Assembly: GCF_002000365.1 (NCBI RefSeq)
Contig: NZ_MVBK01000035.1
Coordinates: 490-51,773, forward strand
Direction: 5' to 3'
DNA: 51,284 nt
Source: Thioalkalivibrio denitrificans
GTDB lineage: Bacteria > Pseudomonadota > Gammaproteobacteria > Ectothiorhodospirales > Ectothiorhodospiraceae
In this document: one piece after another, positions 3,070 through 39,147 of the stretch
How positions within the stretch are numbered: the first letter of the stretch is position 1
Layout of the letters: each line of letters starts with the position of its first letter
Position numbers and translations under genes: made by a program
Notes under the pieces: model-generated
Database searches by the model: none
What the model was told of the DNA's origin: nothing
The model's input: only the letters and a program-made list of their open reading frames with translations

Positions 3070-3915
3070 ATGCAAACCCTGTCCTACAGGCACTGGGTGG
3101 GCCGGCTGGTCAGCCAGGAGGAATTGCGGCTTATGCTGGCGCTGCTGGTGCTGCTCGTCGTGCTGCTGGCGATCGGCGGCGTGCTGCCGCGACTCAGCGA
3201 CGGTCCAGTCGTGCTGGTGTGGGTGTTGCTCTGGCTGCCGCTGCTGGGGCTGCTGTTCTGGCGCCGCCGCCTGGCGCGCCGCGCCTGGCTTCGGGTCTAC
3301 CTGAGGGACACCAGTCCGTGGTCCGCCAGGTTGCGCGGCGGGGTCCTGATGCTGCTCGGCCAGGCCCTGCTGGCGGCGGTGTTCGCCCTGGCGCTGCTCC
3401 TCTCCCTGGCCCGGGGTATCGCGCCTTCCGTCTGGGTCGTGCTGATCCTTTCCGTGCCGTTGTGGTCCAAGGTCTGGACGCTGGCGGGACGCGGTCTTCA
3501 GCGACATGCCAGCCCCGAGTTCCTGCCCGTGACGGCGGGGCGGGCCGTGGTCTGGGCATCCGGAATCGTGCTCGTGCTGGGCCTGGGCATTCGCAGCCTC
3601 TGGCAGCCGGTGCCGGACCTGGGTGAGGTGACTCTGTACGACACGGTCCGCCATTACGCCGCGGAACAGGACGTCCGCAGCACCGTGCTGGGGGGACTGC
3701 TGTCCGTTTTTGCCGTGCTGGAGGGTGTGCCCCACTGGCTGGCGCAGCACTGGTTCGATGGCCTGCCGGGTCTGGGTCTGAAGGTGATCGCCTGGATGGT
3801 GGTGCTGGTGCGGGAGTGGCTTTTCGTGTGGCCCTTGCTGCTGCTGTGCGCGGCCGTCTCACATATGGTCTATCGACATGAACACCGACACGAACCCGGC
3901 CATTCCGGCCCCTGA
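3070..3915 (+). CDS. Uncharacterised multi-pass membrane protein
   Basis: A 281-residue protein, not recognised as any named family. It has about six or seven hydrophobic segments: residues 20-40, 46-64, 92-115, 120-135, 158-175 and two near the C-terminus (about 210-265). The cytoplasmic tail is His/Arg-rich (MVYRHEHRHEPGHSGP). A GAGGGAGCAG ribosome site precedes the ATG. Its last 38 bp overlap the next gene in another frame, which indicates tight translational coupling, so the two products probably work together at the inner membrane. The 3'-overlapping neighbour is also uncharacterised. Confidence 0.78.
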   Translation: MQTLSYRHWVGRLVSQEELRLMLALLVLLVVLLAIGGVLPRLSDGPVVLVWVLLWLPLLGLLFWRRRLARRAWLRVYLRDTSPWSARLRGGVLMLLGQALLAAVFALALLLSLARGIAPSVWVVLILSVPLWSKVWTLAGRGLQRHASPEFLPVTAGRAVVWASGIVLVLGLGIRSLWQPVPDLGEVTLYDTVRHYAAEQDVRSTVLGGLLSVFAVLEGVPHWLAQHWFDGLPGLGLKVIAWMVVLVREWLFVWPLLLLCAAVSHMVYRHEHRHEPGHSGP

Positions 3916-8839: not shown

Positions 8840-9699
8840 GGGTGACGCTCACCCTCCACAACCACCCAGTGCCGGCCTTCCTCGAACCGGAACTCAATGG
8901 GGTAGTCGAAGCGTCGTTCGCTGTAGAAAGGGGAGTCGGGCGCGAGGTAATGCGTCGCGGCATGGCGCGGCAGGGTGCGCAATTCTTGCGGCTCAAGCAG
9001 GGGTGCCAGCCGTGCGATGACAGACAGTGTGCCGCGATGGACGACGGGCTCCTGGCCGCGATATTCGCGCTCCACCACCGCGCGGATCAGGTCCGCGTAG
9101 TCCACCGTCAACACGCGATAGGCCTCACGATCCGGCAGTTCCAGTTCGTGGCGCTGGCGCTCCAGCAGGCGATCTTCACTGTCCCGGACCAGCAGTTCGA
9201 GGGCGTGCATTCCTGCGCGTTCGCCTCGCGTGATCAGGGCGATGTCGATGCCCCGGCCGTCACGCCGGTGCGTGGCACGAACGTCCGCAACCGTCTGACG
9301 GGCGTCAAGCATCTGCTCGAGATAGCCCTGACGAACCGTGAGCGCCGTGTGTTGAGCGTAGAGTTGATACGCGCCCAGAAAGGCAGCGACTATGGCCGTC
9401 GCAATCAGAATGTGGGCCCGGCGGTGCTCGATGGCCAGCTCACTGGCCTCGAGTGACAGGGACTGCATCCTCCGGCCAAACAGATAGCCGACTGTGCTGC
9501 AAATCAGGACAGCGGCCGTGAAGCCGGCGATGGCCAGCCCGTAGAGGAGGGTGCCTGTACCCTCTCCCCACGGGCCTTCGCCGTAAACAATCAGAAACAG
9601 GACAGTCACGCCGAGACCGGTGGCAATAGCCACCGCGCCGTAGCCGAGGATGATTCCCCACAATAACCCGACCAGCAGGTACTTGCGCACCAGATCCAT
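8827..9699 (-). CDS. Uncharacterised membrane protein with a soluble C-terminal domain
   Basis: A 290-residue protein with three hydrophobic segments (about 7-40, 48-72 and 94-112), followed by a charged C-terminal domain (about 115-290) rich in Arg and Glu, with RDSEDRLLERQRHELELPDREAY. The layout looks like a sensor or membrane-anchored protein, but no HAMP, kinase or GGDEF motif is present. No family is recognised. It is divergent from the ABC-2 permease gene across a 314-bp gap. Confidence 0.7.
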   Translation of the reverse strand: MDLVRKYLLVGLLWGIILGYGAVAIATGLGVTVLFLIVYGEGPWGEGTGTLLYGLAIAGFTAAVLICSTVGYLFGRRMQSLSLEASELAIEHRRAHILIATAIVAAFLGAYQLYAQHTALTVRQGYLEQMLDARQTVADVRATHRRDGRGIDIALITRGERAGMHALELLVRDSEDRLLERQRHELELPDREAYRVLTVDYADLIRAVVEREYRGQEPVVHRGTLSVIARLAPLLEPQELRTLPRHAATHYLAPDSPFYSERRFDYPIEFRFEEGRHWVVVEGERHPVAR

Positions 9700-10013
9700 G
9701 ACTTTTCAGCCCATCTCCCGGCTCGACCGCCGACAGCGGACGCCATAACTTCAGACAGACTCGTAGAATAAACACCCGCCCCGGGGATTGCCATTTCCCC
9801 CAGTGGGAAGAGGCTTCCGTGCATTTCACGGTCAGCCTGCTGCGGGAAACGTTCGGCACCCATTACAATGCATGTTGCCGGCTGATTCGATCAGGACGGC
9901 CGGCGATTTGTTGCCGGCGCATCGTCGACCGATAGATCCATCCACGTTGGACATCCTGTTCGGATGCCCGGAACGGACACCACACTGGACACCCCTCCAC
10001 CCTGTTGCCACTG
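9700..10013. other. Intergenic region between divergent genes
   Basis: This 314-bp stretch separates a minus-strand membrane protein gene from the plus-strand ABC-2 permease gene and should hold both promoters. I see no strong operator, RNA or conserved small gene; frames crossing it are shadows of the permease gene. Confidence 0.4.
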
Positions 10014-10814
10014 ATGTCCCCCGTCTCTCCCATCCGCATTTACGCCATGATCCTGCGCTACCTGTACCTGTTGCGCGGGTCGTGGCCGCGCATCCTGGAG
10101 CTGGCGTACTGGCCGACGGTGCAGATGATCCTCTGGGGCCTGATCACGCAGTTCTTCACGGGCCACAGCGAGTGGGTGGCGCAGGCGGCCGGGATCCTGA
10201 TCGCTGCAGTGCTGTTGTGGGACGTGCTGTTCCGGGCCCAGCTGGGCGTGACGCTGCCCTTCTACGAGGAAATGTACTCGCGCAACCTGGGGCACCTGTT
10301 CGTGAGTCCGCTTCGGCCCTGGGAACTGGTGGTGGCGCTGCTCGGGATCAGCCTGGTGCGCACCCTGATCGGCGTGCTGGCGGCGGCGCTGCTGGCCATT
10401 CCGCTGTATCACTACTCCATCTTCGAGATGGGTTTGCCGCTGCTCGCATTCTTCACGCAACTGCTGGTGATGGGATGGGCGCTGGGACTGATGATCAGCG
10501 CGCTGGTGCTGCGCCTCGGGATGGGGGCGGAGAGCCTGGCGTGGGTGGGTGTGTTCGCGCTCGCGCCGCTTTCGGGCATCTACTATCCGGTGGAGACGCT
10601 ACCCGACTGGCTCGAGCCGGTGGCGCTGGCCCTGCCCTCGGCGCACGTCTTCGAGGGCATGCGCGCGGTGCTGATCGACGGCGTCTTCGACACCGGTCAC
10701 TTCCTCGCCGCCCTGCTCCTCAACGGCGTCTACATCGCCTTCGGCGTGGCGGTCTTTCTATGGTCATTCCAGTCGGCGCGACGACGGGGGGCCTTGTTGC
10801 AGATGGGGGAGTGA
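10014..10814 (+). CDS. ABC-2 type transporter permease
   Basis: A 266-residue ABC-2 permease with six hydrophobic segments: about residues 35-55, 58-75, 105-130, 140-165, 172-192 and 230-252. Family marks are YLYLLRGSWPRILELAYWP, YEEMYSRNLGHLFVSPLRPWE (the coupling-helix region) and FALAPLSGIYYPVETLPDWL with ALPSAHVFEGMR, typical of drug or polysaccharide-type exporters such as NodJ. The ATG at 10014 is chosen over an upstream TTG. No ATPase gene lies beside it, so its partner must be encoded elsewhere. A nested inverted repeat begins 10 bp after the stop. Confidence 0.85.
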   Translation: MSPVSPIRIYAMILRYLYLLRGSWPRILELAYWPTVQMILWGLITQFFTGHSEWVAQAAGILIAAVLLWDVLFRAQLGVTLPFYEEMYSRNLGHLFVSPLRPWELVVALLGISLVRTLIGVLAAALLAIPLYHYSIFEMGLPLLAFFTQLLVMGWALGLMISALVLRLGMGAESLAWVGVFALAPLSGIYYPVETLPDWLEPVALALPSAHVFEGMRAVLIDGVFDTGHFLAALLLNGVYIAFGVAVFLWSFQSARRRGALLQMGE

Positions 10815-10823
10815 CCGTTTGTT

Positions 10824-11069
10824 AACCACGAAGCTCACGAAGGATTCCTGGAATGGGACTGCGTTGCCCGCATTGGATGGTGCACAGATCATTGACATGA
10901 GGGGCACTGGCGGGATTGGTCGTTATGACTCTCGCGAAGCCGCGAAGCCCGCAAAGATTGCGAGCGTGCGGAAAAGCCATACAGCCCGACAGCCCAATTT
11001 TTCCTTGGCGGGCTTCGCGGCTTTGCGAGAGAAATGCTTTTCTTCGTGTTCTTCGTGAGCTTCGTGGTT
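10824..11069. repeat. Nested double inverted-repeat element behind the permease gene
   Basis: The outer arms 10824-10842 and 11051-11069 are a perfect 19-bp inverted repeat built from CACGAAG units about 9 bp apart. The inner arms 10930-10952 and 11008-11030 match at 22 of 23 positions and use a related but different unit (GCGAAGCC, also about 9 bp). The two families are nested one inside the other, and the element fills the space between the permease stop and the convergent DUF3775 gene. No coding potential is seen in it. Confidence 0.8.
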
Positions 11070-22915: not shown

Positions 22916-24862
22916 TCAGCCCGCCTGTTTCACGCGCATGTACCACTCCACCAGCCGGCGCACCTGGCGCTCGGTGTAACCGCGTTCCACCATGCGCTGC
23001 ACAAAGTCGCTGTGCTTGCGCTCCAGTTCGGAGTCGGCCTTGGTGCCGAAGCTGATCACCGGCAACAGGTCCTCCACCTGGCTGAACATGCGCTTCTCGA
23101 TCACCTCGCGGATCTTCTCGTAGGAGGTCCACGACGGCATCTTGCCGCCCTGTGCCGCCTGGGAGCGCAACGCGAATTTCACCACCTCGTTGCGGAAGTC
23201 CTTGGGGTTTGCAATGCCGGCGGCCTTCTCGATCTTGGACAGCTCCTGGTTGAGCGCAGGACGGTCGAGCATTTGCCCGGTATCCGGATCCTTGAAATCG
23301 TGGTCCTCGATCCAGGCGTCGGCATAGGTCACGTAGCGCTCGAACAGGTTCTGGCCGAAGTCGTGGTAGGACTCCAGATACGCCTTCTGGATTTCGTTGC
23401 CGATGAAGTCCGCGTAGCGCGGCGCCAGTTCCGCCTTGATGAATTCGAGGTAGCGTCGCTCCGTCTCCTCCGGGAACTGCTCGCGGCGGATGGACTGCTC
23501 CAGCATGTAGAGCAGGTGCACCGGATCGGCGGCCACCTCGCGGTTGTCGTAGTTGAAGGTCTCGGAAAGCACCTTGAACGCAAAGCGCGTGGAGACGCCG
23601 GTCATGCCCTCGTCCACCCCGGCCACGTCACGGTACTCCTGCATGGACTTGGCCTTGGGATCGGTGTCCTTGAGGCTCTCGCCGTCGTACACCCGCATCT
23701 TGGAGTACAGGCTCGAGTTCTCGTGCTCCTTGAGCCGGGTGAGCACCGAGAACTTCGCCAGCAGGTCCAGGGTGGCCGGGGCGCAGGGCGCATCGCTCAG
23801 CTCGCTCGTGCGGATGAGCTTGTCGTAGATGAGCTGTTCCTCCGTGGCTCGCAGGCAGTAGGGCACCTTGATCACCGAGATACGGTCCAGGAAGGCCTCG
23901 TTGTTCTTGTTGTTTCTGAATGTCTGCCACTCGGCCTCGTTGGAGTGCGCCATGATGATCCCGTTGAAGGGGATGGCGCCGATGTTTTCCGTGCCCACAT
24001 AGTTGCTTTCCTGGGTGGCGGTCAGCAGCGGGTGCAGCATCTTGATGGGCGCCTTGAACATCTCCACGAATTCCAGGATGCCCTGGTTGGCGCGGTTGAG
24101 GCCGCCCGAGTAGCTGTAGGCGTCGGTATCGTTCTGGCTGTAGAGCTCCAGCTTGCGGATGTCCACCTTCCCGACCAGCGAGGAGATGTCCTGGTTGTTC
24201 TCGTCGCCGGGTTCGGTCTTGGCGATGGCGATCTGGCGCAGCTTGGACGGATAGATGCGCACCACGGAGAAGCGCGACAGGTCGCCGCCGAACTCGTCCA
24301 GCCGCTTGACCGCCCAGGGGGAGATCAGACCGGTGAGCCGGCGCTTCGGAATGCCGAAACGCGCCTCGATGTCGGCCCCGTGGGTTTCCGGGTCGAACAG
24401 GCCCAGGGGGCTTTCGAACACGGGCGAGATCTCGTCGTTGGCCTTGAGCACGTAGATGGGGAGTTTCTCCATCAGGCTCTTGAGCCGTTCTGCCAGCGAG
24501 GACTTGCCGCCGCCCACCGGACCGAGCAGGTAGAGGATCTGCTTGCGCTCCTCCAGGCCCTGCGCCGCGTAGCGGAAGAAGCCGACGATGCGCTCGACGG
24601 TCTCCTCCATGCCATAGAAATCCTCAAAGGCCGGGTAGATCTTGATGGTTCGATTGAGAAAGATGCGTCCGAGGCGCTCGTCCTTGGCAGTATCGAGTAC
24701 CTTGGGGTCCCCGATGGCGGCCACGAGCCGCTCGCCGGCGGTCGCGTACATCATGGGATCGTCCGCGCAGGCCTCCAGGTAGGCACTCAGGGGCATTTCC
24801 GACTCCTGGCGCTGCTGGTATTCCCGTGCGTACTGGGCGATCAGGGTTTCTGCGGAATCCAT
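22916..24862 (-). CDS. prkA: PrkA family serine protein kinase (YeaG-like)
   Basis: A 648-residue PrkA/YeaG protein, close to the 644 residues of E. coli YeaG. The N-terminal AAA-like domain has Walker A GPVGGGKSS (114-122), and the C-terminal domain contains the PrkA kinase-like region. It is cytosolic and, in E. coli, supports survival under nitrogen starvation. A ribosome site GGAGGTG precedes the ATG, and a sigma-54-type promoter is found 38-64 bp upstream, as expected for nitrogen control. It is the first gene of the operon with yeaH and spoVR. Confidence 0.96.
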   Translation of the reverse strand: MDSAETLIAQYAREYQQRQESEMPLSAYLEACADDPMMYATAGERLVAAIGDPKVLDTAKDERLGRIFLNRTIKIYPAFEDFYGMEETVERIVGFFRYAAQGLEERKQILYLLGPVGGGKSSLAERLKSLMEKLPIYVLKANDEISPVFESPLGLFDPETHGADIEARFGIPKRRLTGLISPWAVKRLDEFGGDLSRFSVVRIYPSKLRQIAIAKTEPGDENNQDISSLVGKVDIRKLELYSQNDTDAYSYSGGLNRANQGILEFVEMFKAPIKMLHPLLTATQESNYVGTENIGAIPFNGIIMAHSNEAEWQTFRNNKNNEAFLDRISVIKVPYCLRATEEQLIYDKLIRTSELSDAPCAPATLDLLAKFSVLTRLKEHENSSLYSKMRVYDGESLKDTDPKAKSMQEYRDVAGVDEGMTGVSTRFAFKVLSETFNYDNREVAADPVHLLYMLEQSIRREQFPEETERRYLEFIKAELAPRYADFIGNEIQKAYLESYHDFGQNLFERYVTYADAWIEDHDFKDPDTGQMLDRPALNQELSKIEKAAGIANPKDFRNEVVKFALRSQAAQGGKMPSWTSYEKIREVIEKRMFSQVEDLLPVISFGTKADSELERKHSDFVQRMVERGYTERQVRRLVEWYMRVKQAG

Positions 24863-25555: not shown

Positions 25556-27934
25556 CTACTTCAAGAGCGCCAGCGGCCGGTACTGCAGGGCGTGGAACAT
25601 CTCCAGGTAACGCCGGGTTTCCGCGCGTTCCAGGTTGGTGACGTACTTCCAGAAGCCGTAGATGCGAGACAGCGTCATCATGCGTTCGGCATACAGCCGC
25701 CAAGTGTAGCGCTCTTCGACCCGGGCGATGGCGCCCCGGGAGATCGCATCCCAGTGTGCCGGGTCCTTCTGGCAGCGCTCCAGGAAGGCTGCTAACTCCG
25801 CGCTGGCGGTCTCCCCGTGGTTGGGGTCGATGTGAAAGCCGCTGGTCCCGTGGCGGATGATCTCCAGCGGTCCGCCGTAGCGTGTGGCGAAGGTGGGCAG
25901 GCCGGAGGCCATGGCCTCGATCACCGTCAGGCCGAAGGCCTCGAACAGCGCGGGCTGCACGAATACCCCGCGCCGGTCCGCAATGCAGCGGTACAGTTCC
26001 CCGGACAGGGTCTTGTCCAGGCGCACGCCCAGCCAGCGTACGCACCTGTCGAGGTCGTGGTCATCGAACAGGGCGTGCATACGCTCGATCTGCGCCTGTT
26101 CCTCGTGGTCGTCGGAGTGGCGGGGGTCCACGGCGCCGGCCACCACCACCAGGTTGGCGAGCTCGCGCAGCGTGGGGTGTTCCGCGTACCACGACACCAG
26201 CCCGGTGATGTTCTTGATGCGGTCCAGGCGGGCCATGGTGAAGATCACCGGTCGGCCGGGGTCGGCCAGCACGCCCCGGGCATCGTCCCGTGCACCACCA
26301 TAGAGCAGGTCGTCGATCTCGGTGTGCAAGCCGGTGATGCGCTGCCCGGTATCCGTGTAGGGGAAATACACGCGTTCGTCCGCACCGGGAGACACGATGT
26401 TGAACTTGGGGTCAAATACATTGATGCCCTGCACAACCCGGTACAGGTCCGGCATGGAGAAATGCATGTAGCTCTCGTACTGACCGATCTCGTCGTCTGT
26501 GCCCGCGATCTCCTGGTAGGTGCTGGTGATGATGAAGTCGGCCGAGTTCATGGCGATCAGGTCGGCGGTAAACTGGGTGGCGAAGTGATACTGGGCGTCG
26601 TTGTCCTTCCAGTACAGGTCGGAATACAGGTACTTGGTCTTCTCCAGGGCATGGGCGATGTTGCATTGCGTCACGTGCATGCGCGCGGACAGCAGCGAGG
26701 CCACCAGGTTGCCGTCGGAGTAGTTGCCGATGATCAGGTCCGGCCGCCCGCCCAGGTCCGCGAGGATCGTACGTTCCACCTCGTCGGCGAAACGCTCCAG
26801 GTACGGCCAGATCTCGAAGCGTGAGATCCAGTGGGACACGATCTCGCCGTCGTCGCCGCGAAACGGCACGCGCAGGATGCGTGCGTCCTCGGTCCCGGAA
26901 ATAGCCTCCTCGGCCTGGTCACAGGTGGTGCCCCGGGCCTCGGGGATCAGCCGCGTGACAACGCGTATGCGGGGCTCGATCTCGAGGCCCTGCTCGGAGA
27001 GGCGATCACGCATCTCGCGTTCCAGTGCGCGCACCTGGTCCAGGATGTAGACGACCTGCCCGCCCGTGTCCGGCAGACCCAGCACGCCCGCCTGCCCGAA
27101 GAAGCCGTGGGGCGAAAGGATCAGCAGGCTGAAGATCATGGGAATACGCGCCAGAAACCGCTCGAGGCTCTCGGGTGACGGCGCTTCCAGCAGTTCCGAG
27201 AGCAGACGCATGCTGTCCAGCACCCGGCCCGCGTCGCGTCCCCAGCCGGGCTCAAAGCCCAGGTGCTGGAGTTCATGGGCAATCTCCGTCCAGGGGGTGT
27301 CGCGGTCGCGCCGCGCCAGGCGCTTTTCCGCATCGCGGATGGCGGTGCGCAAGGCATCCACGCCGTCGATGCGGTCGTTGATCATCAGGGGACGACCGTC
27401 GCAGCGGTGCTCGCGCAGAAACAGGAACAGCTTGCTCAGGCCGCCGTTGGCGCGATCGAACAGCTGGCTGGAGAGCTTGCGGTTGAGAAACTCCACGCCC
27501 CGGCCGATGGAGCGTGTCTCGCGCATCTGCGGGAACTCCCGGTTGAAGGGCTCGATGTCGAACTCCAGCGGCCGTTCATGGCGCGGGTTCGGGCAGACCA
27601 GGCGCTCCTTCACCTCCAGAAAGTGACCCACGGTGAGCGGCTCCACACTCAGGTCGTCGGCATGGATGCGCACGAAGCTCCAGCGCCCGATGCGCTGGCG
27701 CAGCGCCAGGCACACCCAAGGCGCCGCAAGCACCGCCTCCTGGCAGTGTTCCACCATGTGCGCCAGCGGGCTGTCCGCCAGCGAGGCATCGTCGATGTCC
27801 TGACACAGGGCGTCGAACTCGTCGTGCAGCTGTGATTTCAGCAGGAAGGGGCGTCCCAGGGCCAGGTAACGCCGCAGCAGCAGGTACGCGGCCTCCCGTT
27901 GGGCCTGCAGGCTTTCCTCGAGCTGGTGGGTCAT
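25556..27934 (-). CDS. Sucrose synthase
   Basis: A 792-residue GT-B glycosyltransferase (GT4). The N-terminal regulatory region (about 1-270) is followed by the catalytic part with [32 protein letters not shown], where the GGQVVY motif marks sucrose synthases, and by the E-x7-E motif in [20 protein letters not shown]. It reversibly converts sucrose and a nucleoside diphosphate to fructose and NDP-glucose. In bacteria it occurs in few lineages, among them sulfur oxidisers and nitrifiers that hold sucrose as an osmolyte. It is divergent from the MarR gene and osmolyte-like cluster. Confidence 0.95.
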
Positions 27935-28047: not shown

Positions 28048-28554
28048 ATGTCCACACCCCGTTCCAGCCTGTCCGGCGAATCCGGCAGCGCCAACGCAGC
28101 GCAATCCATCATCCGTCAGCTGCGGGTGGTGTTCCGCGCCCTGCAGAACCATTCGCGCAGCATCGAGAAGGCCTGCGGGGTCAGCGCGGCCCAGTTGTGG
28201 GCCCTGTGGGAGCTGCACAACGCGCCCGGTCTCAGAGTGGGCGATCTCTCGCACAGGCTGTTGATTCATCCTTCCACGGCTTCCAACATGCTGGACAAGC
28301 TGGAGAGCAAGCATCTGGTGGAACGGCGCAGGACAGGTATGGACCAAAGGGTGGTCAGCCTGTTTCTCACCCCGCGCGGAGAGGACCTGCTCCGGGCGGC
28401 CCCCGCGCCGGCCGAGGGCGAACTCAACCGTGCCCTGCAGGCCCTGCCCGGTCAACAGTTGGCGGCGCTCGAGTCGGGTCTGGCGGCCCTGCTGGAACAC
28501 ATGCAGGCCCATGACGAACAGGCCGCCCTGCGACCCATCGCCGGGGATGACTGA
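28048..28554 (+). CDS. MarR-family transcriptional regulator
   Basis: A 168-residue MarR regulator. The winged helix spans about residues 45-110 with VSAAQLWALWELHNAPGLRVGDLSHRL, HPSTASNMLDKLESKHLVERRRT and MDQRVVSLFLTPRGEDLL, the usual MarR wing. The ATG at 28048 is preferred to a TTG at 28024. It heads, by 84 bp, the cluster of N-carbamoyl hydrolase, cysteine hydrolase, carbamoyltransferase and amidotransferase, and probably controls it. MarR-type EctR regulators play the same role at ectoine genes of some halophiles, which makes a salt-response role an attractive inference. Confidence 0.9.
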   Translation: MSTPRSSLSGESGSANAAQSIIRQLRVVFRALQNHSRSIEKACGVSAAQLWALWELHNAPGLRVGDLSHRLLIHPSTASNMLDKLESKHLVERRRTGMDQRVVSLFLTPRGEDLLRAAPAPAEGELNRALQALPGQQLAALESGLAALLEHMQAHDEQAALRPIAGDD

Positions 28555-28638
28555 ATTCACGCATGACGCCGCGCACCGTGCTCCGTCGGGCCCTGCCGGT
28601 GTCATCCGTCCGGAATGTCCGGAAGGAGCAACCAGACC

Positions 28639-29925
28639 ATGAACGAGATCAGAGTCAACTTCGAACGTCTGCGCGACGATGTGCAGAGCCTGTCACGCAT
28701 CGGTCAGCAGGAGGATCAGGGTATCCACCGCATGGCTTTCAGTGAGGGCGATCTGGAGGGACGGCGCTGGTTTCGTTCGCGCGCCGAAGCCGCCGGCCTC
28801 GAGGTCTACGAGGATGGTGCCGCCAATCTGCACGCACGCCTGGACTGGGACGGAAAGCGTCCCGCCGTGATGATGGGTTCGCACCTGGACACGGTGCCCG
28901 GCGGCGGCCCGCTGGACGGGGCGCTGGGGGTTCTGGTGGGCCTCGAGGTGATGCGCACCATCAGCGAGGCGGGCGTCAAACTCAGGCATCCGCTGGAGGT
29001 GGTGGACTTCACCGACGAGGAGGGTCGTTTCGGCGGCCTGTTCGGTTCCCAGGCCATCGCCGGGCAGCTCACACCGGCCATCATTCACAACGCCCATGAC
29101 CTGGACGGCGTCACGCTTACCGAGGCCATGGCCGCCTGGGGGCTGGATGCCAACGCGGCCCTGTTCGCACGCCGCTCCCCGGAATCCATACACGCCTATC
29201 TGGAGCTTCATATCGAGCAGGGGCCGGTGCTGGACCGCAACAATGTGTCCATTGGCGTGGTGGATGCCATTACGGGCCTGTTCAAGTGGGACGTGCGCCT
29301 GATGGGGCAGACCAACCATGCGGGCACAACGCCCATGGATATGCGCGCCGACAGTTTTCAGGGGCTCGCGGAATTTTCCGGCGAGATCACCCGCATTCTG
29401 GAAGAGCACGGCAGCCCTCACAGCCGGGCCACCATCGGCCGGGTGGAACTCAAGCCGGGTGCCGCGAACACCATCCCCGGGCAGACCAGCTTTTCCCTGG
29501 ACGTGCGCGACACCGATGCCGAGACACTGAAGAATCTCTCGGATGCCTTCCGACGCACGCTCTCGGCACTGGCGCGGCGCCGGGACCTGATGTTCGAGTT
29601 CGACGTGCTGTCGGAGATCCCGCCCATGCGCTGCGACCCCGGGCTGGTTCAGTTGCTCACGGAGACTGCCGACCGCCTGGGGCTGGAGCATCTGCGCATG
29701 CCCAGCGGTGCGGCCCATGACGCCCAGATCATGGGGTCCGTCACCCGCACCGGCATGATCTTCGTGCCCAGCATCGAGGGCAAGAGCCATTCGGCATCCG
29801 AGTGGACGCCGTGGGAGGACATCGAGAAAGGGGCGAACCTGGCCCTGCAGGCGATACTGCAACTGGCCGCTGCGGATGCCGGCGTGACCATCAAGGAGCA
29901 GCCGGCGAAGAGGAAAAAGGCATGA
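28639..29925 (+). CDS. M20-family N-carbamoyl-L-amino-acid hydrolase / allantoate amidohydrolase-like
   Basis: A 428-residue binuclear metallohydrolase. Metal ligands are His82 in GSHLDTVPGGGPLDGALGVL, Asp93, Glu127-Glu128 in DFTDEEG, His191 in ELHIEQGPVLDR and a late His in PSGAAHDAQIM; TNHAGTTPMDMRAD is the dimer-interface substrate-binding segment. Family members cleave N-carbamoyl amino acids, allantoate or ureidopropionate to release NH3 and CO2. GGAAGGAG precedes the ATG at 28639. The stop overlaps the next start (ATGA). In this context decarbamoylation of N-carbamoylglutamine is my proposal, not a demonstrated activity. Confidence 0.9.
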   Translation: MNEIRVNFERLRDDVQSLSRIGQQEDQGIHRMAFSEGDLEGRRWFRSRAEAAGLEVYEDGAANLHARLDWDGKRPAVMMGSHLDTVPGGGPLDGALGVLVGLEVMRTISEAGVKLRHPLEVVDFTDEEGRFGGLFGSQAIAGQLTPAIIHNAHDLDGVTLTEAMAAWGLDANAALFARRSPESIHAYLELHIEQGPVLDRNNVSIGVVDAITGLFKWDVRLMGQTNHAGTTPMDMRADSFQGLAEFSGEITRILEEHGSPHSRATIGRVELKPGAANTIPGQTSFSLDVRDTDAETLKNLSDAFRRTLSALARRRDLMFEFDVLSEIPPMRCDPGLVQLLTETADRLGLEHLRMPSGAAHDAQIMGSVTRTGMIFVPSIEGKSHSASEWTPWEDIEKGANLALQAILQLAAADAGVTIKEQPAKRKKA

Positions 29926-30668
29926 ACGACAAGCCCGACAATGTCACCGATCTGACCAGGTACGACAATGTCGACCCGTTGCGCGAGCAGTATCGTGAAA
30001 CCCTGATCACCAACCGGATACTGAAGCGAGAGCTGGGCGCGCACCACACGGCGCTGCTGAGCATCGACCTGCAATACCTGGACGCCGCGCGTGGTCACGG
30101 CGTATTCGCAGACGCGGAACGTTCCGGCGTGCCCACCGAGGCGCAGGACTATTACTTCAGCCGTCTGGAGGACCTGGTCCTGCCCAACGTGCGGCGCCTG
30201 CAGGACGCGTTCCGCGCCGTGGGGCTGGAAGTGATCCATACGCGCATCCAGTCTCTGACCCGGGACGGGCGCGACCGGGGGCCGGGTCACAAGCGGCTCA
30301 ACCTGCATGCCGCGCCGGGCTCCAAGGAAGCGGAATTTCTGGAGATCGTGGCACCGCAGGGTGACGAGATCGTCATCAACAAGACCGCCAGCGGCGTGTT
30401 CACCTCCACCAACCTGGAATACGTCCTGCGTAATCTGGAGGTCACCTCTCTGTTCGTGGTGGGCGTCTACAGCAATGAGTGCGTCTCCACCGCCATCCGT
30501 GACGCCTGCGACCTGGGTTTTTACGTCACGCTCATCGAGGACGGCTGCGCGACGGTGACGCCGGAGATGCAGCGGGCGACCCTGACCACCATCAAGGACC
30601 GCTATGCCCGGGTCATGACCACCGACGAGGCACTGGCGGAGATCGCCAAGGTTGAAGAAGCCTCGTAA
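29922..30668 (+). CDS. Isochorismatase-like cysteine hydrolase (amidase)
   Basis: A 248-residue hydrolase of the isochorismatase-like / N-carbamoylsarcosine amidase fold. The catalytic triad is visible as Asp49 in LLSIDLQYLD, Lys154 in INKTASGVF and Cys187 in GVYSNECVSTAIRDA. Family members hydrolyse primary amides and carbamoyl compounds. A 40-residue N-terminal extension is present. It is translationally coupled to the M20 hydrolase (ATGA overlap), so the two should act in one pathway. Removal of the terminal amide from an N-carbamoyl amino-acid amide would fit; this is inference. Confidence 0.88.
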   Translation: MNDKPDNVTDLTRYDNVDPLREQYRETLITNRILKRELGAHHTALLSIDLQYLDAARGHGVFADAERSGVPTEAQDYYFSRLEDLVLPNVRRLQDAFRAVGLEVIHTRIQSLTRDGRDRGPGHKRLNLHAAPGSKEAEFLEIVAPQGDEIVINKTASGVFTSTNLEYVLRNLEVTSLFVVGVYSNECVSTAIRDACDLGFYVTLIEDGCATVTPEMQRATLTTIKDRYARVMTTDEALAEIAKVEEAS

Positions 30669-30673
30669 ACCCC

Positions 30674-30700
30674 GCTCAGCCTGAGCGCACGGACTATATA
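30674..30700 (+). promoter_or_regulatory. Hairpin and possible internal promoter before the carbamoyltransferase
   Basis: GCTCA-GCC-TGAGC (30674-30686) is a small perfect hairpin 6 bp after the cysteine-hydrolase stop, and TATATA (30695-30700) resembles a -10 element. The 93-bp gap to the next gene leaves room for separate transcription of the presumed synthetic genes. No convincing -35 was found. Confidence 0.35.
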
Positions 30701-30761
30701 AAGAGGATTCCCCCTGATGTTCCATCCCCAAGCCCACCCGTGACCCGAGGAGAGGCACGCC

Positions 30762-31850
30762 ATGGCAGTTCCCAACGATCCGCAGCTTGAGCGCCCGCTC
30801 AAGCCCAAGGACGGCACCGCCGGCATCGAGCGCCCCAGGGCGTTGCTGGATTCCCTGCCCGAGGACCCGCGTCCGCTCATGTCGCTGTCGAGTCGGCACG
30901 TGGTTTCATCGCGTCAGTTCGACCGCGACACGCTGCTGCAACTGTTCCGGCTCGCCGCGCAGTACGAGAGTACCCCTGCGCTGCTGCATCCGCCACTGGC
31001 AGGAAAGATCCTGATCAGCGCCTTTTATGAACCCAGTACGCGCACGCGTCTGTCGTTCGAAAGCGCGTGGCATCGCCTGGGCGGAGACATCATGTCCATC
31101 ACCGACGCCAGGAGCACCGGCATCGCCAAGGGCGAATCCCTGCCCGACATCGCCGAGATGTTCAACAACTACGGGGACGTGATCGTGCTGCGCAATACGG
31201 AGGCCGAGGCGATCTACGAGATGCTGGACTCGCTGCGTATCCCGATCATCAATGCGGGCAACGGCATCGACGAGCACCCCACCCAGGCCATGGCCGATGT
31301 CTACACCATCTTCAAGTGGCGTCCGGAACTGACCAGCCCGGATCTGCCGGCCGGCAAGCGCATCCGCATCGGCATCATCGGCGTGCCGAGCCGCATGCGC
31401 ACGGTGCGCAGCCTGTTGCTGATGCTGGCGTACTTTGCCTCGTCCATCGAGGAAGTGGCCATCCTGAGCCACGAAGACAACCTCTTCGACGAGGGTCAGC
31501 ACGAGGAGCTGACCAAGGCCGGCCTTTCAGTGCGTGTGGCCACGGATCTGGACGGCGAGTTGCCGAATCTGGATGTGGTGTACATCAACGCCATCGCGTG
31601 GGTGGGCGACACCTTCGAGGCCATGGGCATGGACATGCGCCTGAGCGCGGCGTCGCCGCTGAAGAAAGACGCCATCATCCTTCACCCGCTGGCACGCGGC
31701 GAGGAGCTGTCCACCGACCTGGACAAGACATCCCACAACTGGTACTTCGCCCAGGCCCGCGGCGCCGTATTCATCCGCATGGCACTGCTCACCTGCATGG
31801 TGCGGCGCATCGGCGAGGTCATGGATGTCCCGGATACGTCCCGGGGTTGA
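30762..31850 (+). CDS. Aspartate/ornithine carbamoyltransferase-superfamily enzyme, altered amino-acid site
   Basis: A 362-residue carbamoyltransferase, about 50 longer than catalytic ATCase chains because of an N-terminal extension of about 40. The carbamoyl-phosphate site is intact: STRTR at 92-96, Lys123 of the 80s loop (KGESL), Arg144 and HPTQ at 172-175. The ATCase Arg167 counterpart is kept (MRTVRSLL, Arg213), and HPLAR-GEELSTDLDKT resembles HPLPR-VDEIATDVDKT of ATCase. But TRxQ, which holds the aspartate side-chain carboxylate, is missing: here the strand reads YINAIAWVGDTFE (274-286). So it is unlikely to be PyrB. It may carbamoylate another amino acid such as glutamine. Confidence 0.9.
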   Translation: MAVPNDPQLERPLKPKDGTAGIERPRALLDSLPEDPRPLMSLSSRHVVSSRQFDRDTLLQLFRLAAQYESTPALLHPPLAGKILISAFYEPSTRTRLSFESAWHRLGGDIMSITDARSTGIAKGESLPDIAEMFNNYGDVIVLRNTEAEAIYEMLDSLRIPIINAGNGIDEHPTQAMADVYTIFKWRPELTSPDLPAGKRIRIGIIGVPSRMRTVRSLLLMLAYFASSIEEVAILSHEDNLFDEGQHEELTKAGLSVRVATDLDGELPNLDVVYINAIAWVGDTFEAMGMDMRLSAASPLKKDAIILHPLARGEELSTDLDKTSHNWYFAQARGAVFIRMALLTCMVRRIGEVMDVPDTSRG

Positions 31851-31852
31851 GA

Positions 31853-32036
31853 AGAAATGAACGACAGGATGAACAGGATTGTTGGGGATTAACAGGAAGA
31901 AGAATTGATCCAACTGCATCAACGGCATCTACGTGATTCTCGATTGAATCCGACCCCGTTGCCCACGTTGATCTTGTCTGAAAAGACTTCTTCCTGTTCA
32001 TCCTCAAAAATCCTGTAAATCCTGTCCATTAAGAAT
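31853..32036. repeat. Inverted repeat of ACAGGAT units behind the carbamoyltransferase
   Basis: The left side (31865-31905) and right side (31985-32034) carry inverted, degenerate copies of an ACAGGATGA unit. The element begins 2 bp after the carbamoyltransferase stop and fills most of the 248-bp gap to the amidotransferase gene. The same unit family occurs at 35145-35286 and 35957-36001. No gene is seen in this gap. Confidence 0.72.
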
Positions 32037-32098
32037 TTTCGTTGCGCGCTCCGCGGCGCTGCAACTGAGTTGGTTCACATTCGCAGGAGAAAACACAC

Positions 32099-34117
32099 AT
32101 GTGTGGAATAGCTGGCGTGATGAACGCCGATCCCAAGCAACCCGTCGATCCCGAGACCCTGGTGGCCATGGCGGCCATTCAGTATCACCGCGGGCCGGAC
32201 GGGTTCGGTTACCGGGTGGAGAAGGGCCGCGGTGTGGGGTTTTCCCATGCCCGACTGACCATCATTGACCTGGACGAGAACCGCGGCCGCCAGCCGTTCG
32301 TCTCCCATGACGGGAACCTCATGCTGGCGGTCAACGGCGAACTCTACGACTACAAGCGCATCCGCACTGAGCTTACGTCGCGGGGCCACAAGTTCCGCAC
32401 CAAGAGCGACTCGGAGATCGTGTTGCATCTTTACGAGCGCCTCGGGTTGGAGGAGACGCTCAAACACATGCGCGGCGAGTTCGGCGTGGCGCTCTACGAC
32501 CGCGCTCACGACCGGCTCATGCTGATCCGGGATCGCTTCGGTGTGAAGCCCCTCTACTGGACCGAGGTCAACGGCAGGATCGTGTTCGGCTCCGAGATCA
32601 AGGTGCTGTTCGCGCATCCGGATGTGCCGCGCCGGTTCAACGCCAAGGGCCTCTACCATCAGCTCATGCAGACCGTGGTACCCGGCACCACGGCGTTTGA
32701 CGGCATCCACCAGGTCAAGCCGGGTCACGTGGTGACCATCGAGCGCCGCCACGGCAAGTTCGAGATCCGTGACGATCGCTACTGGGACATGGACTTCCCG
32801 CTGCTCGAGGAACGCGGCGAGCCCGAAGACGACGAGGTCTACATCGAGGCTGTGCGCCGGGAGCTGATGCAGGCCGTGCAGCTGCGCCTGGAGGCGGACG
32901 TGCCGGTGGCCTGTTACCTCTCCGGGGGCATCGATTCCTGCATCACGCTGGGTCTGTCCGCGGCGAACCAGCAGTCGCCGGTCAAGGCCTTCACCATCGG
33001 CTTCGACAACGCCGACTACGACGAGACGGCCATCGCCACCGAGATGGCCGAGTCCGTGGGCGCGGACCAGGACGTCATGCGTCTCAACGCTGACCATCTC
33101 TACGACAATCTCGTAGAGACGCTCTGGCATGCCGAACGCACCATCTACAACACGCTCGGTGTGGCGAAGCTCCTCATGAGCCGGCACGTGAACAAGGCCG
33201 GCTATCGGGTGGTGGTGACCGGCGAGGGCTCGGACGAACTGTTCGCCGGCTACCCGGCGTTCCGCCGGGACATGTTCCTGCACGGTCTCGACACCATGGA
33301 TCGGGCCGAGCGCGCCAGCTGGGAGCAGCTGCTGTCCGAGAGCAACAAGCTGTTCTCCGGCGCCATGCTCGCAGAGAACGAGCTCAACGACCCGGCGCTC
33401 AACGATCTGGTGGGCTTCACGCCCTCCTGCCTGCAGCCGTGGCTTGCCACTGCCGCTCATGTTCCGGGTCTCATGTCCAAGGACATGCGCGCCCAGGTGG
33501 AGGGTTACGAGCCGGGCCGCGCCATTGCCGAGGCGCTGGACGGCGACATGATCGAGGGGCGCCATCCCCTGGACAAGGCGCAGTACGTGTGGATCAAGAC
33601 CATGCTGGAAGGCCAGATCCTCACCTGGGGCGGTGATCGGGTGGACATGGCCAACTCCATGGAGGCGCGTCCGCCCTTCCTCGATCATCACCTGGCGGAG
33701 CTGGCCACGAAGATCCCGCCCTCCATGCGCATCCGGGGCCGCACGGAAAAGTACGTGCTGCGCGAATCCATGAAGGGGTTGCTGCCGAAGGTGCTCTACG
33801 AGCGCGAGAAGTTCGCGTTCATGGCGCCGCCGGCGCATACGGACCCCAAGAAATGGGCGGCCATGAAGGCACTGGCAGACCAGTACCTCTCCGACGAGGC
33901 CATCGAGGCCGCGGGGCTGCTGGATCCGGCCGGCGTGAAAGCGCTGTTCGAGCTGCACGACGCCGAGGACACCACCGCCTCCACCCAGGTGCAGCTGGAT
34001 GCGGTCATCAACCACATGATCGGTGTGCAGGTGCTGCACAGCCACTTCGTGGCGCAGGACGTGCCCGCGCTGGCGCGTGCGAAAGCGAAGGAACTGGGGT
34101 GGACGGCGGCGGCGTAG
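32099..34117 (+). CDS. Asparagine-synthetase-like glutamine amidotransferase
   Basis: A 672-residue AsnB-superfamily enzyme. Class II glutaminase: Cys2 nucleophile in MCGIAG, RGPDGFG at 31-37, GFSHARLTIID, LAVNGELYDY and SDSEIVLH. Synthetase domain: PP-loop SGGIDS at 275-280, then GEGSDELFAGYPA. It forms a carboxamide from a carboxylate with ATP and glutamine. It is longer than E. coli AsnB (about 554) and nearer in size to AsnB-like amidotransferases such as the one making N-acetylglutaminylglutamine amide, an osmolyte. The start is fixed by the required Met-Cys and an AGGAG site. Neighbours suggest amidation of an N-carbamoyl amino acid. Confidence 0.92.
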   Translation: MCGIAGVMNADPKQPVDPETLVAMAAIQYHRGPDGFGYRVEKGRGVGFSHARLTIIDLDENRGRQPFVSHDGNLMLAVNGELYDYKRIRTELTSRGHKFRTKSDSEIVLHLYERLGLEETLKHMRGEFGVALYDRAHDRLMLIRDRFGVKPLYWTEVNGRIVFGSEIKVLFAHPDVPRRFNAKGLYHQLMQTVVPGTTAFDGIHQVKPGHVVTIERRHGKFEIRDDRYWDMDFPLLEERGEPEDDEVYIEAVRRELMQAVQLRLEADVPVACYLSGGIDSCITLGLSAANQQSPVKAFTIGFDNADYDETAIATEMAESVGADQDVMRLNADHLYDNLVETLWHAERTIYNTLGVAKLLMSRHVNKAGYRVVVTGEGSDELFAGYPAFRRDMFLHGLDTMDRAERASWEQLLSESNKLFSGAMLAENELNDPALNDLVGFTPSCLQPWLATAAHVPGLMSKDMRAQVEGYEPGRAIAEALDGDMIEGRHPLDKAQYVWIKTMLEGQILTWGGDRVDMANSMEARPPFLDHHLAELATKIPPSMRIRGRTEKYVLRESMKGLLPKVLYEREKFAFMAPPAHTDPKKWAAMKALADQYLSDEAIEAAGLLDPAGVKALFELHDAEDTTASTQVQLDAVINHMIGVQVLHSHFVAQDVPALARAKAKELGWTAAA

Positions 34118-34125
34118 CCGCCGCC

Positions 34126-34194
34126 GAAGGATGAAGGACGAAGGATGAAGGATGAATCAGGCCGGATCCGGTTTTCATTCATCCTTCATCCTTC
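34126..34194. repeat. Inverted repeat of GAAGGAT units behind the amidotransferase gene
   Basis: GAAGGATGAAGGATGAAT (34140-34157) is repeated in inverted form without mismatch at 34177-34194. Additional GAAGGA units precede it, and the element begins 8 bp after the stop codon. A GC-rich palindrome spans the stop itself (about 34109-34127), possibly a terminator stem. Confidence 0.85.
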
Positions 34195-34245
34195 AACCTT
34201 CTTCCTTTGCCAGCGCGATCACCGGACTCGAAAGGAGCCCCCAAT

Positions 34246-35145
34246 ATGGAACTCGTCCTCGAATATTTCCAGGAGGTCCAATGGGATGACCTGATCTTTT
34301 CCACGCTGCGCATCCTGCTCATCCTGGTCATGGCCTGGGTGATCATGAGCGTGGTGCGCAACGCCCTGGGGCGGATGCAGCGCCGGCTGGTGGAGAGCGG
34401 CAAGCGCCAGGGGGACGTCCCTTCGGAGGCCAGCAAGCGCGCCGAGACCCTGGTGCGGCTGCTGCGCCAGGCGGTGATGATCGTCGTCTGGGTCATGGCG
34501 CTGCTGGTGATCCTCAACGAACTGGGTGTGTCCGTTGCCCCGATCCTGGCCTCGGCCGGCGTGCTGGGACTGGCGGTGGGCTTCGGCGCGCAGAACCTGG
34601 TGCGTGATGTCATCAGCGGGTTCTTCTTCATCCTCGAGAATCAGGTCCGCGTGGGCGACGTGGCGGTGGTCAACGGTACCGGCGGGCTGGTGGAGGCCAT
34701 CAACTTCAGGACCCTGGTGCTACGCGACCTGGAGGGCAAGGTGCACATCTTCCCGAACGGGACCATCGACTCCGTAACGAACCTGACCCGCGAGTGGTCC
34801 GCCTATGTGTTCGACATCGGCGTGGCCTACAAGGAGGACACCGACAAGGTAGTGGGTATCCTGAAGTCGGTGGGCGAGGAGATGAAGGCCGACCCGGAGT
34901 ACGGACCGAACATCATCGAGGACATGGAGATCTTCGGGGTGGACAAGTTCGATGATTCCGCCGTGGTCATCAAGGGACGCATCAAGACCCTGCCCATCAA
35001 GCAGTGGTACGTGGGCCGCGAGTTCCTGCGCCGGGTGAAGTATGCCTTCGACGCCCAGGGCGTGGAGATCCCGTTCCCGCACCGCACCTTCTACTTCGGC
35101 GACGCCAGTCCGCCTGTGCTGGCGCGTATGATCAACCGCGAATGA
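34246..35145 (+). CDS. Small-conductance mechanosensitive channel (MscS family)
   Basis: A 299-residue MscS channel, close to E. coli MscS (286). Two N-terminal membrane helices (about 18-38 and 65-90) precede the pore-lining TM3 with its Gly/Ala-rich pattern VAPILASAGVLGLAVGFGAQNLVRDVISGFFFILENQVRVGD (about 95-140), the standard signature. The beta domain and C-terminal cage follow. AAAGGAG precedes the ATG at 34246. It opens on hypo-osmotic shock and releases small solutes. Its position directly behind the carbamoyl/amide cluster suggests that it serves the same osmotic response. Confidence 0.94.
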   Translation: MELVLEYFQEVQWDDLIFSTLRILLILVMAWVIMSVVRNALGRMQRRLVESGKRQGDVPSEASKRAETLVRLLRQAVMIVVWVMALLVILNELGVSVAPILASAGVLGLAVGFGAQNLVRDVISGFFFILENQVRVGDVAVVNGTGGLVEAINFRTLVLRDLEGKVHIFPNGTIDSVTNLTREWSAYVFDIGVAYKEDTDKVVGILKSVGEEMKADPEYGPNIIEDMEIFGVDKFDDSAVVIKGRIKTLPIKQWYVGREFLRRVKYAFDAQGVEIPFPHRTFYFGDASPPVLARMINRE

Positions 35146-36825: not shown

Positions 36826-37617
36826 ATGAACGACGATCCCTGCGTGTACCTGGTGGGAACCGGGCCGGGTGATCCCGACCTTCTGACCGTCAGGGCCCTG
36901 CGCCTGATCGAGCAGGCCGACGTGGTGGTCTATGACCGCCTCGTGGCCCCCGGGGTGCTGGACCTGGTCCCCGCCGGCGCCAGCCGCATCTACGTGGGCA
37001 AGGCCACCGATCGCCACACCCTGCCACAGGACGAGATCAACCGGCTGCTGCTCAAGGTGGCCGGCCGCGCCCGGGTCGTGGTACGGCTCAAGGGCGGGGA
37101 TCCGTTCGTTTTCGGCCGGGGTGGCGAGGAAGCGGAGTTTCTGCGCCGGCACAACGTGCGCTTCGAAGTGGTCCCCGGGGTCACGGCGGCTACGGCCGTG
37201 ACCACCTATGCCGGTATCCCCCTGACCCATCGGGGCCTGTCCACGGGGGTGCAGATCATCACGGGCCACAGCCGTGCCAACGGCCCCCTCGAGCACGACT
37301 GGGCGCGGCTGGCCAACCCCGATCAGACGCTGGTCATCTACATGGGCGTGTCGAACATCGACGAAATCAGCGCCCGGCTCATGGAGGCCGGCCTGTCGGG
37401 TGATACCCCCGCAGCGGCGATCCAGGACGGCGCCACAAGCCGGCAGCGGCGCCTGGTGACCACGCTGGCCCAGCTGGGCCGCGAGACCCGCGAGGCCGAT
37501 CTGCGTCCGCCGGTGCTGTTCGTCATCGGGCGGGTGGTGAGCATGGCGGATACCCTGGACTGGTATCGGCCCGAGCAGGCGGAGGCGTGCCCCACGGCGC
37601 GAGAGCGCAGTGCATAG
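36826..37617 (+). CDS. nirE: Uroporphyrinogen-III C-methyltransferase (heme d1 pathway)
   Basis: A 263-residue SUMT. It uses SAM to methylate uroporphyrinogen III at C2 and C7, giving precorrin-2, the first committed step to heme d1. Marks are VYLVGTGPGDPDLLTVRALRL, YVGKATDRHTLPQDEIN, VRLKGGDPFVFGRGGEEAEFL and VPGVTAATAVTTYAGIPLTHRG. It lacks the CysG oxidase/chelatase domain. The nir context indicates NirE rather than CobA or CysG. Its stop overlaps the next start, so translation is coupled. The FNR-type box upstream probably drives it and the rest of the cluster. Confidence 0.93.
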   Translation: MNDDPCVYLVGTGPGDPDLLTVRALRLIEQADVVVYDRLVAPGVLDLVPAGASRIYVGKATDRHTLPQDEINRLLLKVAGRARVVVRLKGGDPFVFGRGGEEAEFLRRHNVRFEVVPGVTAATAVTTYAGIPLTHRGLSTGVQIITGHSRANGPLEHDWARLANPDQTLVIYMGVSNIDEISARLMEAGLSGDTPAAAIQDGATSRQRRLVTTLAQLGRETREADLRPPVLFVIGRVVSMADTLDWYRPEQAEACPTARERSA

Positions 37618-37957
37618 AGCAGTGGATAGATTCGTAATCGCAATACCGCTCGCCGTGCTGCTGGCCATGGGGGCCGGACCGGCAGCCATGGCCGGAGAGG
37701 CGCCCATCGACGACGAGCGCAAGGCTCACTTGCGCCACCTGGTCAAGCAGGACTGCGGTTCCTGCCACGGCCTGACCATGCGCGGCGGGCTGGGCCCGCC
37801 GATCACGCCCGAGGCACTGGCGCAGCGCGACCGGGAGACAATGGTGTACACCGTCCTGTACGGACGCCCCGGCACGCCCATGCCGCCCTGGTCTAGTATC
37901 CTGACTGAGCAGGAAGCCCGGTGGATTGTGGACCTGTTATACGAAGGAGACCTGTAG
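37610..37957 (+). CDS. nirC: NirC-type periplasmic cytochrome c
   Basis: A 115-residue monoheme cytochrome c with a signal peptide (cut near MAG-EA) and a single heme site C49-G-S-C52-H53. A methionine ligand is likely in TPMPPW. The start is GTG at 37610, overlapping the nirE stop; GTG at 37622 is an alternative. NirC-type proteins take part in the last periplasmic steps of heme d1 synthesis or supply electrons to NirS/NirN. The stop TAG overlaps the GTG start of nirF (37957). Confidence 0.85.
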   Translation: MHRAVDRFVIAIPLAVLLAMGAGPAAMAGEAPIDDERKAHLRHLVKQDCGSCHGLTMRGGLGPPITPEALAQRDRETMVYTVLYGRPGTPMPPWSSILTEQEARWIVDLLYEGDL

Positions 37958-39147
37958 TGAGGCGCACGAAACTTGCCGGATGCCTGCTGTGGGTGCTGCT
38001 GCTCGCCTGCCCCCTGGCGCTTGCCGGTCAGTCCGACGGCCTGCGCGCCACGGGCGATCTGGGCGTGATCATCGAGCGGGCCACCGGCAGCATCCAGATC
38101 ATCGAGACCACCTCGCGCACCAGCCTGGCCCGGATCACCGGGCTCGGCGATCTCTCCCATGCCTCGGTGAAGTATTCCCGGGACGAGCGCTATGCCTACA
38201 TCTTCGGCCGCGACGGCGGGCTCACCCAGGTGGACATGCTCAGGCGCAAGATCACCAACCGCATCATCCAGTCGGGCAACAGCATCGGGGGTGCGATCTC
38301 CCAGGACGGGCGGCTGCTGGCCGTGGCCAACTACGATCCCGGCGGCGTGAAGGTGTTTGATGCCCGCACCCTGGAACTGGTGGCCGACATCCCCGCCAAG
38401 GACGACGGAGGCGAGCGCTCCAAGGTGGTGGGCCTCGTGGACGCGCCGCGCCAGCGTTTTGTGTTCAGCCTGTTCGAGGCCGGCGAGATCTGGGTGGCGG
38501 ATTTCAGCGGGGGCGATACCCCGGAGATCACCCGCCACCGGGACGTGGGGCGCCAGCCCTACGATGCGCTGATCACCCCTGACGGCCGCTACTACATCGC
38601 CGGGCTGTTCGGCGAGGACGGCATGGCCATGCTGGACCTGCGCCGGCCGCAGGACGGCGTGCAGCGCATCATGGACGGTTACGGGCGCGGCGACGAGCCG
38701 CTGCCGGTGTTCAAGATGCCGCACCTGGAGGGCTGGGCCATGGCCGGTGACTATGCCTTCATGCCGGCGGTGGGGCACCACTCGGTCCTGGTGGTGGACC
38801 GGCGCGACTGGAGCGAGGTCAAGCGCATTCCGGTCCACGGGCAGCCCATCTTCGTCATGGCCAGCCCCGACCAGCACGCGGTGTGGGTCAATTTCGCCTA
38901 CCCGGACAATGACACGCTGCAGGTGATCGACGTGGATACCCTCGAGATCAAGGCATCCCTGAAGCCCGGGCCCGCCGTGCTGCACATGGAGTTCACGCCC
39001 CGGGGCGAGCACATCTGGGTGTCGGTGCGTGACGCCAACGAGGTGCACATCTACGACAGCTATTCCCTGGAGAAGCTCGGACAGCTGCCCGTGGAAAGCC
39101 CCAGCGGCATCTTCCTCACCGCCCGCGCCCACCGGATCGGACTCTGA
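37957..39147 (+). CDS. nirF: Heme d1 biosynthesis protein NirF
   Basis: A 396-residue eight-bladed beta-propeller related to the d1 domain of cytochrome cd1. The start is GTG at 37957, overlapping the nirC stop. The signal region MRRTKLAGCLLWVLLLACPL ends in LLAC, which could be a lipobox, as NirF is a lipoprotein in some denitrifiers; a cut at ALA-GQ is the alternative. Propeller marks are YAYIFGRDGGLTQVDMLRRK, GHHSVLVVDRRDWSEVKRI and PRGEHIWVSVRDANEVHIYD. It acts in the periplasm on a late heme d1 precursor. Confidence 0.94.
   Translation: MRRTKLAGCLLWVLLLACPLALAGQSDGLRATGDLGVIIERATGSIQIIETTSRTSLARITGLGDLSHASVKYSRDERYAYIFGRDGGLTQVDMLRRKITNRIIQSGNSIGGAISQDGRLLAVANYDPGGVKVFDARTLELVADIPAKDDGGERSKVVGLVDAPRQRFVFSLFEAGEIWVADFSGGDTPEITRHRDVGRQPYDALITPDGRYYIAGLFGEDGMAMLDLRRPQDGVQRIMDGYGRGDEPLPVFKMPHLEGWAMAGDYAFMPAVGHHSVLVVDRRDWSEVKRIPVHGQPIFVMASPDQHAVWVNFAYPDNDTLQVIDVDTLEIKASLKPGPAVLHMEFTPRGEHIWVSVRDANEVHIYDSYSLEKLGQLPVESPSGIFLTARAHRIGL

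Follow-up and report, generated by a model that had tools for sequence, protein, structure and literature searches.

A candidate gene cluster for biosynthesis, turnover and transport of the osmolyte N-carbamoyl-glutamine amide in Thioalkalivibrio denitrificans and related bacteria

The DNA analyzed here (the window) is a stretch of 51,284 nucleotides from Thioalkalivibrio denitrificans (assembly GCF_002000365.1, contig NZ_MVBK01000035.1; genome 3.6 Mb), probably a haloalkaliphilic sulfur oxidizer. It carries a gene cluster encoding a carbamoyltransferase (CTase), an AsnB-type amidotransferase and two hydrolases which, together with a sodium:solute symporter encoded elsewhere in the genome, probably forms a system for the biosynthesis, turnover and transport of N-carbamoyl-glutamine amide. 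All of these proteins belong to known superfamilies, while the specificity of the CTase would be new. Galinski and Oren reported the compound from Ectothiorhodospira marismortui in 1991, according to the passages of PMC1224877 and PMC3857566 that cite that work. Judged from their sequences, the enzyme types match the two modifications of the solute.

We infer the substrates, product, step order, transport role and regulation to be as follows. The CTase would transfer the carbamoyl group of carbamoyl phosphate to L-glutamine at its alpha-amine. In the next step the AsnB-type enzyme would use ATP to activate the alpha-carboxylate and, drawing ammonia from a second glutamine, convert it to an amide, which leaves the solute neutral. 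Upon dilution, removal of the C1 amide by the amidase and of the carbamoyl group by the M20 carbamoylase would give glutamine back. The symporter would take up or recapture the solute, the MarR protein probably regulates the system, and the MscS channel, where present, may release solutes. Synthesis by CTase and AsnB, with reversal by the two hydrolases, had been proposed in an initial annotation of this DNA. It is supported by the distinctness of the CTase, the co-occurrence of the genes, and their presence in the source strain of the solute; the acceptor, the step order and the product we still infer.

The set of six genes running in a single direction that the initial annotation described (Table 1) is present in full, with every gene intact on the + strand and in the Pfam and NCBIfam families claimed for it. 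The ATGA coupling of the two hydrolases is also there, the M20 gene ending at 29925 and so overlapping the amidase ATG at 29922, and each of the four enzymes has its catalytic motifs, as had been stated.

The strain that is the source of the solute has the cluster. Its genome (accession FOUO) is filed as E. mobilis DSM 4180, which is the same as E. marismortui DSM 4180T (PMC8877833), and locus L060 (NZ_FOUO01000006) carries genes for sucrose synthase, MarR, M20, amidase, CTase and AsnB in the gene order of the window. This genome, which is identical with genome G010 as shown by matching coordinates, encodes three proteins of the aspartate/ornithine carbamoyltransferase (ATCase/OTCase) superfamily, namely PyrB, ArgF and the cluster CTase. 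The co-occurrence among halophilic Ectothiorhodospiraceae that had been put forward as a check on the proposal is thus borne out, source strain included.

Co-occurrence was assessed in 369 genomes sampled evenly from the class of the host. Orthologues of CTase (at least 62% identical), AsnB (at least 67%) and amidase (at least 65%) occur in an identical set of 23 genomes, from 15 families; beyond these the next-best matches fall to 38-44%. The conservation of the set far exceeds chance, although the genomes are related and no simple probability applies. The symporter has the same phylogenetic distribution, being present in 22 of the 23 genomes with CTase (the exception is a genome that is 81% complete) and absent from all 346 others, and for this reason it is assigned to the system. 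It matches PF00474 with 104 bits (gathering score 22.8), but passes neither PutP nor PanF, nor any other of the specific models. In many relatives its gene lies between those for amidase and CTase (e.g., L034 4508-5944), while in the genome of the window (G000:C11:25911-27326) and in E. marismortui it is unlinked to the cluster.

A separate scan of named genomes yielded 80 loci. AsnB is downstream of CTase in 76 of them, and the other four consist of three contig ends and Thiorhodospira sibirica. A symporter gene is found near CTase in 67 and an amidase gene in 49. In T. sibirica, CTase, AsnB (80%), symporter (78%) and amidase (81%) are located at four separate places; since all are kept despite being scattered, it is function, beyond linkage, that holds them together. 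A review (PMC7824335) lists no osmotic-stress genes for T. sibirica, and proposes an alternative solute such as N-carbamoyl-glutamine amide.

The pair of CTase and AsnB, usually with the symporter, is found in Thioalkalivibrio, Idiomarina, Kangiella, a Pseudoalteromonas and spirochaete metagenome-assembled genomes (MAGs). In the spirochaete MAGs the genes for both hydrolases are placed between those for CTase and AsnB. None of the tested genomes of the marine branch (Idiomarina, Kangiella, Pseudoalteromonas and their relatives) yielded a close orthologue of the amidase, and at most a distant M20 adjoins the cluster. Because these genomes keep CTase, AsnB and symporter without a close amidase, synthesis and transport look like the core of the system, with the turnover hydrolases optional and dispensable in the marine branch. 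In marine-branch genomes, a small protein of 145-186 amino acids is encoded directly upstream of the symporter (Table 1). It appears to have a signal peptide and, at its C terminus, a membrane helix, and it matches no Pfam family.

The genome of the window encodes three carbamoyltransferases: the cluster CTase, ArgF (its gene adjoining argD) and PyrB (adjoining a dihydroorotase-like gene). The initial annotation had described the CTase as lacking the aspartate-specific residues, and would have given way had this protein proved to be the only PyrB of the genome and active with aspartate; it is not the only PyrB. The CTase scores below the cut-off of both PyrB models (TIGR00670, 187.9 against 236.95; PRK00856, 185.6 against 263), and its orthologues from E. 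marismortui, Idiomarina and a spirochaete MAG likewise fail both, whereas a PyrB fragment from the same genome as the window scores above both cut-offs. It also fails the equivalogs for ornithine, putrescine, N-acetylornithine and YgeW (90 against a cut-off of 281, 70 against 500, 32 against 288, and 33 against 500, respectively). In a tree it and its orthologues form a group from which the PyrB and ArgF proteins of these genomes are separate. A role as the sole PyrB is ruled out by the separate PyrB and ArgF, the separate clade and the altered site described below. The CTase does resemble PyrB in its superfamily and its carbamoyl-phosphate residues, and its best PDB sequence matches are to the ATCase catalytic chain; it differs in its position below the PyrB cut-offs, in its clade, in coexisting with PyrB, in having HPLAR in place of HPLPR, and in lacking equivalents of Arg229 and Gln231.

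In ATCase, Arg167 helps to bind the alpha-carboxylate, while Arg229 and Gln231 bind the aspartate side chain. The CTase in the window has the motifs STRTR, KGES and HPTQA; across an alignment of 81 CTases, the carbamoyl-phosphate residues STRTR, KGE and HPTQA are kept in at least 98% of sequences, and KGES in nearly all. Arg213, which corresponds to Arg167 of E. coli ATCase, is retained across the alignment. The positions of Arg229 and Gln231 are occupied by A or S in 79 and 80 of the 81, respectively, otherwise by T or V, and never by R or Q. The altered site noted in the initial annotation is confirmed, with Y-I-N-A-I-A-W in the window in place of the ATCase Y-x-T-R-x-Q, and the consensus loop of the clade is YIN[AS]I[AS]W, with rare exceptions. 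Retention of the Arg167 equivalent together with replacement of Arg229 and Gln231 points to an acceptor amino acid whose alpha-carboxylate is free and whose side chain is uncharged, without a beta-carboxylate. A free alpha-carboxylate in turn suggests that carbamoylation would precede amidation.

The acceptor is not readable from sequence alone. The same two reactions could therefore act on another amino acid (asparagine, for example, or one not listed) to give a different N-carbamoyl amino-acid amide, at least in part of the distribution, such as the marine branch, where the amidase is missing and the small membrane protein is additional. The 81 CTases do vary beside the changed loop. We regard this as unlikely, as conservation of the motifs YIN[AS]I[AS]W and HPLARG speaks for a single substrate across the clade, and the glutamine compound is the only such solute in the sources consulted and is the one whose source strain has the cluster.

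More distant matches to the CTase (39-43%) were not accepted as family members, the three that were inspected being without STRTR and an intact pocket. These carbamoyltransferase-like proteins (L143 8212-9363, L144 about 3863-4870, L145 2486-3688) are possible pseudoenzymes. In one genome of the family (G022:C1:1194650-1195704, L038) the CTase lies in two overlapping frames, from either a frameshift or a sequencing error.

The M20 protein contains the motifs GSHLD, DEEG, HIEQGP and SHS and belongs to the TIGR01879 subfamily. Its highest-ranking model is the PRK09290 subfamily, which it passes, followed by the N-carbamyl-L-glutamate amidohydrolase ErtE, for which it scores 395 bits, below the cut-off of 520. 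It thus resembles the hydantoinase/carbamoylase M20 family, but it differs from it in this score and in its neighbors, which are a biosynthetic CTase and AsnB. The amidase has its Asp, Lys and Cys in the motifs IDLQ, NKTASG and NECV. It shares these motifs and the isochorismatase fold family with N-carbamoylsarcosine amidase, RutB and biuret hydrolase, but is far below all the specific cut-offs (for biuret hydrolase, 70 against 370 bits). Both hydrolases come from classes that could reverse the two synthetic steps.

A symporter, a cysteine amidase and an M20 carbamoylase are typical of the breakdown of hydantoin, allantoate or biuret, and the cluster might accordingly salvage ureido compounds, with import by the symporter, degradation by amidase and M20, and the CTase running in reverse to give carbamoyl phosphate. 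This is very unlikely, given that the constant core consists of CTase and the ATP-dependent AsnB, both of which Idiomarina and other marine genomes keep without the amidase, and that breakdown has no use for an amidotransferase, an enzyme that forms amides. Pure ureido catabolism is rejected because CTase and AsnB persist without amidase. A purine or hydantoin pathway is rejected as well, having no place for an ATP-dependent AsnB that co-occurs perfectly with CTase.

The AsnB-type protein has the Cys2 glutaminase motif (MCG) and the ATP site SGGIDS, and belongs to the general asparagine-synthase class (TIGR01536, PF00733). It fails TIGR03104 (310 bits, cut-off 570) and the XrtA-associated models, and its nearest paralogues in the genome of the window are only 33-35% identical. 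In each of four genomes tested, among them that of E. marismortui, the true TIGR03104 N-acetylglutaminylglutamine amidotransferase is a separate gene that scores 957-985 bits (985 against 262 bits in the same genomes), and it is concluded that the cluster AsnB is not this enzyme. That the AsnB-type enzyme serves glutathione amide (described in purple sulfur bacteria and inferred for most Ectothiorhodospiraceae), N-acetylglutaminylglutamine amide or plain asparagine, whose general model it does pass, is extremely improbable, since none of these roles accounts for its exact co-occurrence with CTase, E. marismortui has the gene yet no glutathione reductase was found there as a marker of glutathione amide, and these genomes have the separate TIGR03104 gene and further AsnB paralogues.

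The proposed pathway is nevertheless similar to that for N-acetylglutaminylglutamine amide, in that both charges of a glutamine-derived solute are masked and an AsnB-type enzyme carries out the final amidation of the alpha-carboxylate of an N-acylated glutamine. The difference lies in the blocking group, which there is an acetyl on a dipeptide and in the proposed product of the cluster is a carbamoyl. Genes with full TIGR03104 scores are located at G000:C116:755-2518 in the genome of the window and at G010:C29:8807-10570 in E. marismortui, which suggests that the host can also make N-acetylglutaminylglutamine amide.

Several points weigh against N-carbamoyl-glutamine amide as the product. The choice of glutamine as acceptor is drawn from the known solute, and the marine branch, having no amidase, could make something different. 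A description from 2013 presents the compound as a minor solute of one organism only, whereas the genes occur widely. In papers on Thioalkalivibrio the solutes named are betaine and sucrose, not this compound. A search of the literature on salt induction found the cluster genes nowhere mentioned, and the main text of an RNA-seq paper on T. versutus at high salt does not mention them; the betaine genes were likewise not induced in that study, which tempers its silence on the cluster. No earlier gene assignment for the compound was found among the open-access papers searched.

Table 1. Genes of the cluster and its surroundings. Positions refer to the window, except in the last row, which gives loci in other genomes.
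Feature	Position	Strand	Evidence
Sucrose synthase, divergent neighbor; context outside the pathway	25556..27934	-	TIGR02470 1195 bits
MarR-family regulator, probable cluster regulator	28048..28554	+	PF01047 48 bits
M20 carbamoylase, proposed N-carbamoyl-L-glutamine amidohydrolase (turnover)	28615..29925	+	TIGR01879 387 bits, cut-off 204
Isochorismatase-type cysteine amidase, proposed C1-amide removal (turnover)	29922..30668	+	PF00857 111 bits; Asp-Lys-Cys motifs
Carbamoyltransferase, distinct clade, proposed L-glutamine N-alpha-carbamoyltransferase	30762..31850	+	PF02729/PF00185
AsnB-type glutamine-dependent amidotransferase, proposed N-carbamoyl-glutamine alpha-carboxamide synthase	32099..34117	+	TIGR01536 426 bits, cut-off 267
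MscS mechanosensitive channel, optional neighbor	34207..35145	+	PF00924/PF21082/PF21088
Small membrane protein loci	L099 6883-7419, L115 6866-7426, L130 6985-7422, L127 6872-7429, L107 6960-7430		

The adjacency of MarR and M20 is conserved in Ectothiorhodospira and Thioalkalivibrio. The true start of M20 may be at 28639, 3' of a GGAG. The intergenic gaps are 93 bp between amidase and CTase, 248 bp between CTase and AsnB, and 89 bp between AsnB and MscS. Within the second of these, at 31855-32040, a motif of the form ACAGGAT(T/G) recurs in either orientation, resembling a dispersed intergenic repeat. A scan for promoters and terminators gave no signal above chance.

MscS adjoins the cluster in some relatives only. 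In one of them (L040, about 9560-11037), a frame that by eye resembles KamA, of the lysine 2,3-aminomutase family, lies between AsnB and MscS. Enzymes of the KamA type have a role in the synthesis of the osmolyte acetyl-beta-lysine. Sucrose synthase occupies an equivalent position in E. marismortui locus L060 and in other Ectothiorhodospira. Further out, the window contains a gene for a PrkA-type serine protein kinase (22916-24862, - strand) and, at 36826-39147, genes for a tetrapyrrole methylase, a small cytochrome c and a cytochrome d1-domain protein, which are likely haem d1/nitrite reductase genes.

On balance we favor the view that this is the first gene set for N-carbamoyl-glutamine amide, with a new glutamine N-alpha-carbamoyltransferase specificity, and that producers of the solute, equipped with a dedicated symporter, are spread through the marine and saline Gammaproteobacteria and include some spirochaetes. 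If true, this would close a gene gap that has stood since the compound was described in 1991, and a textbook enzyme superfamily would gain a new activity. The database names 'aspartate carbamoyltransferase' and 'asparagine synthase' would need to be corrected for these genes. A nitrogen-rich osmolyte supposed to be rare would be predicted to occur commonly among marine and saline bacteria, which would have a bearing on dissolved organic nitrogen.

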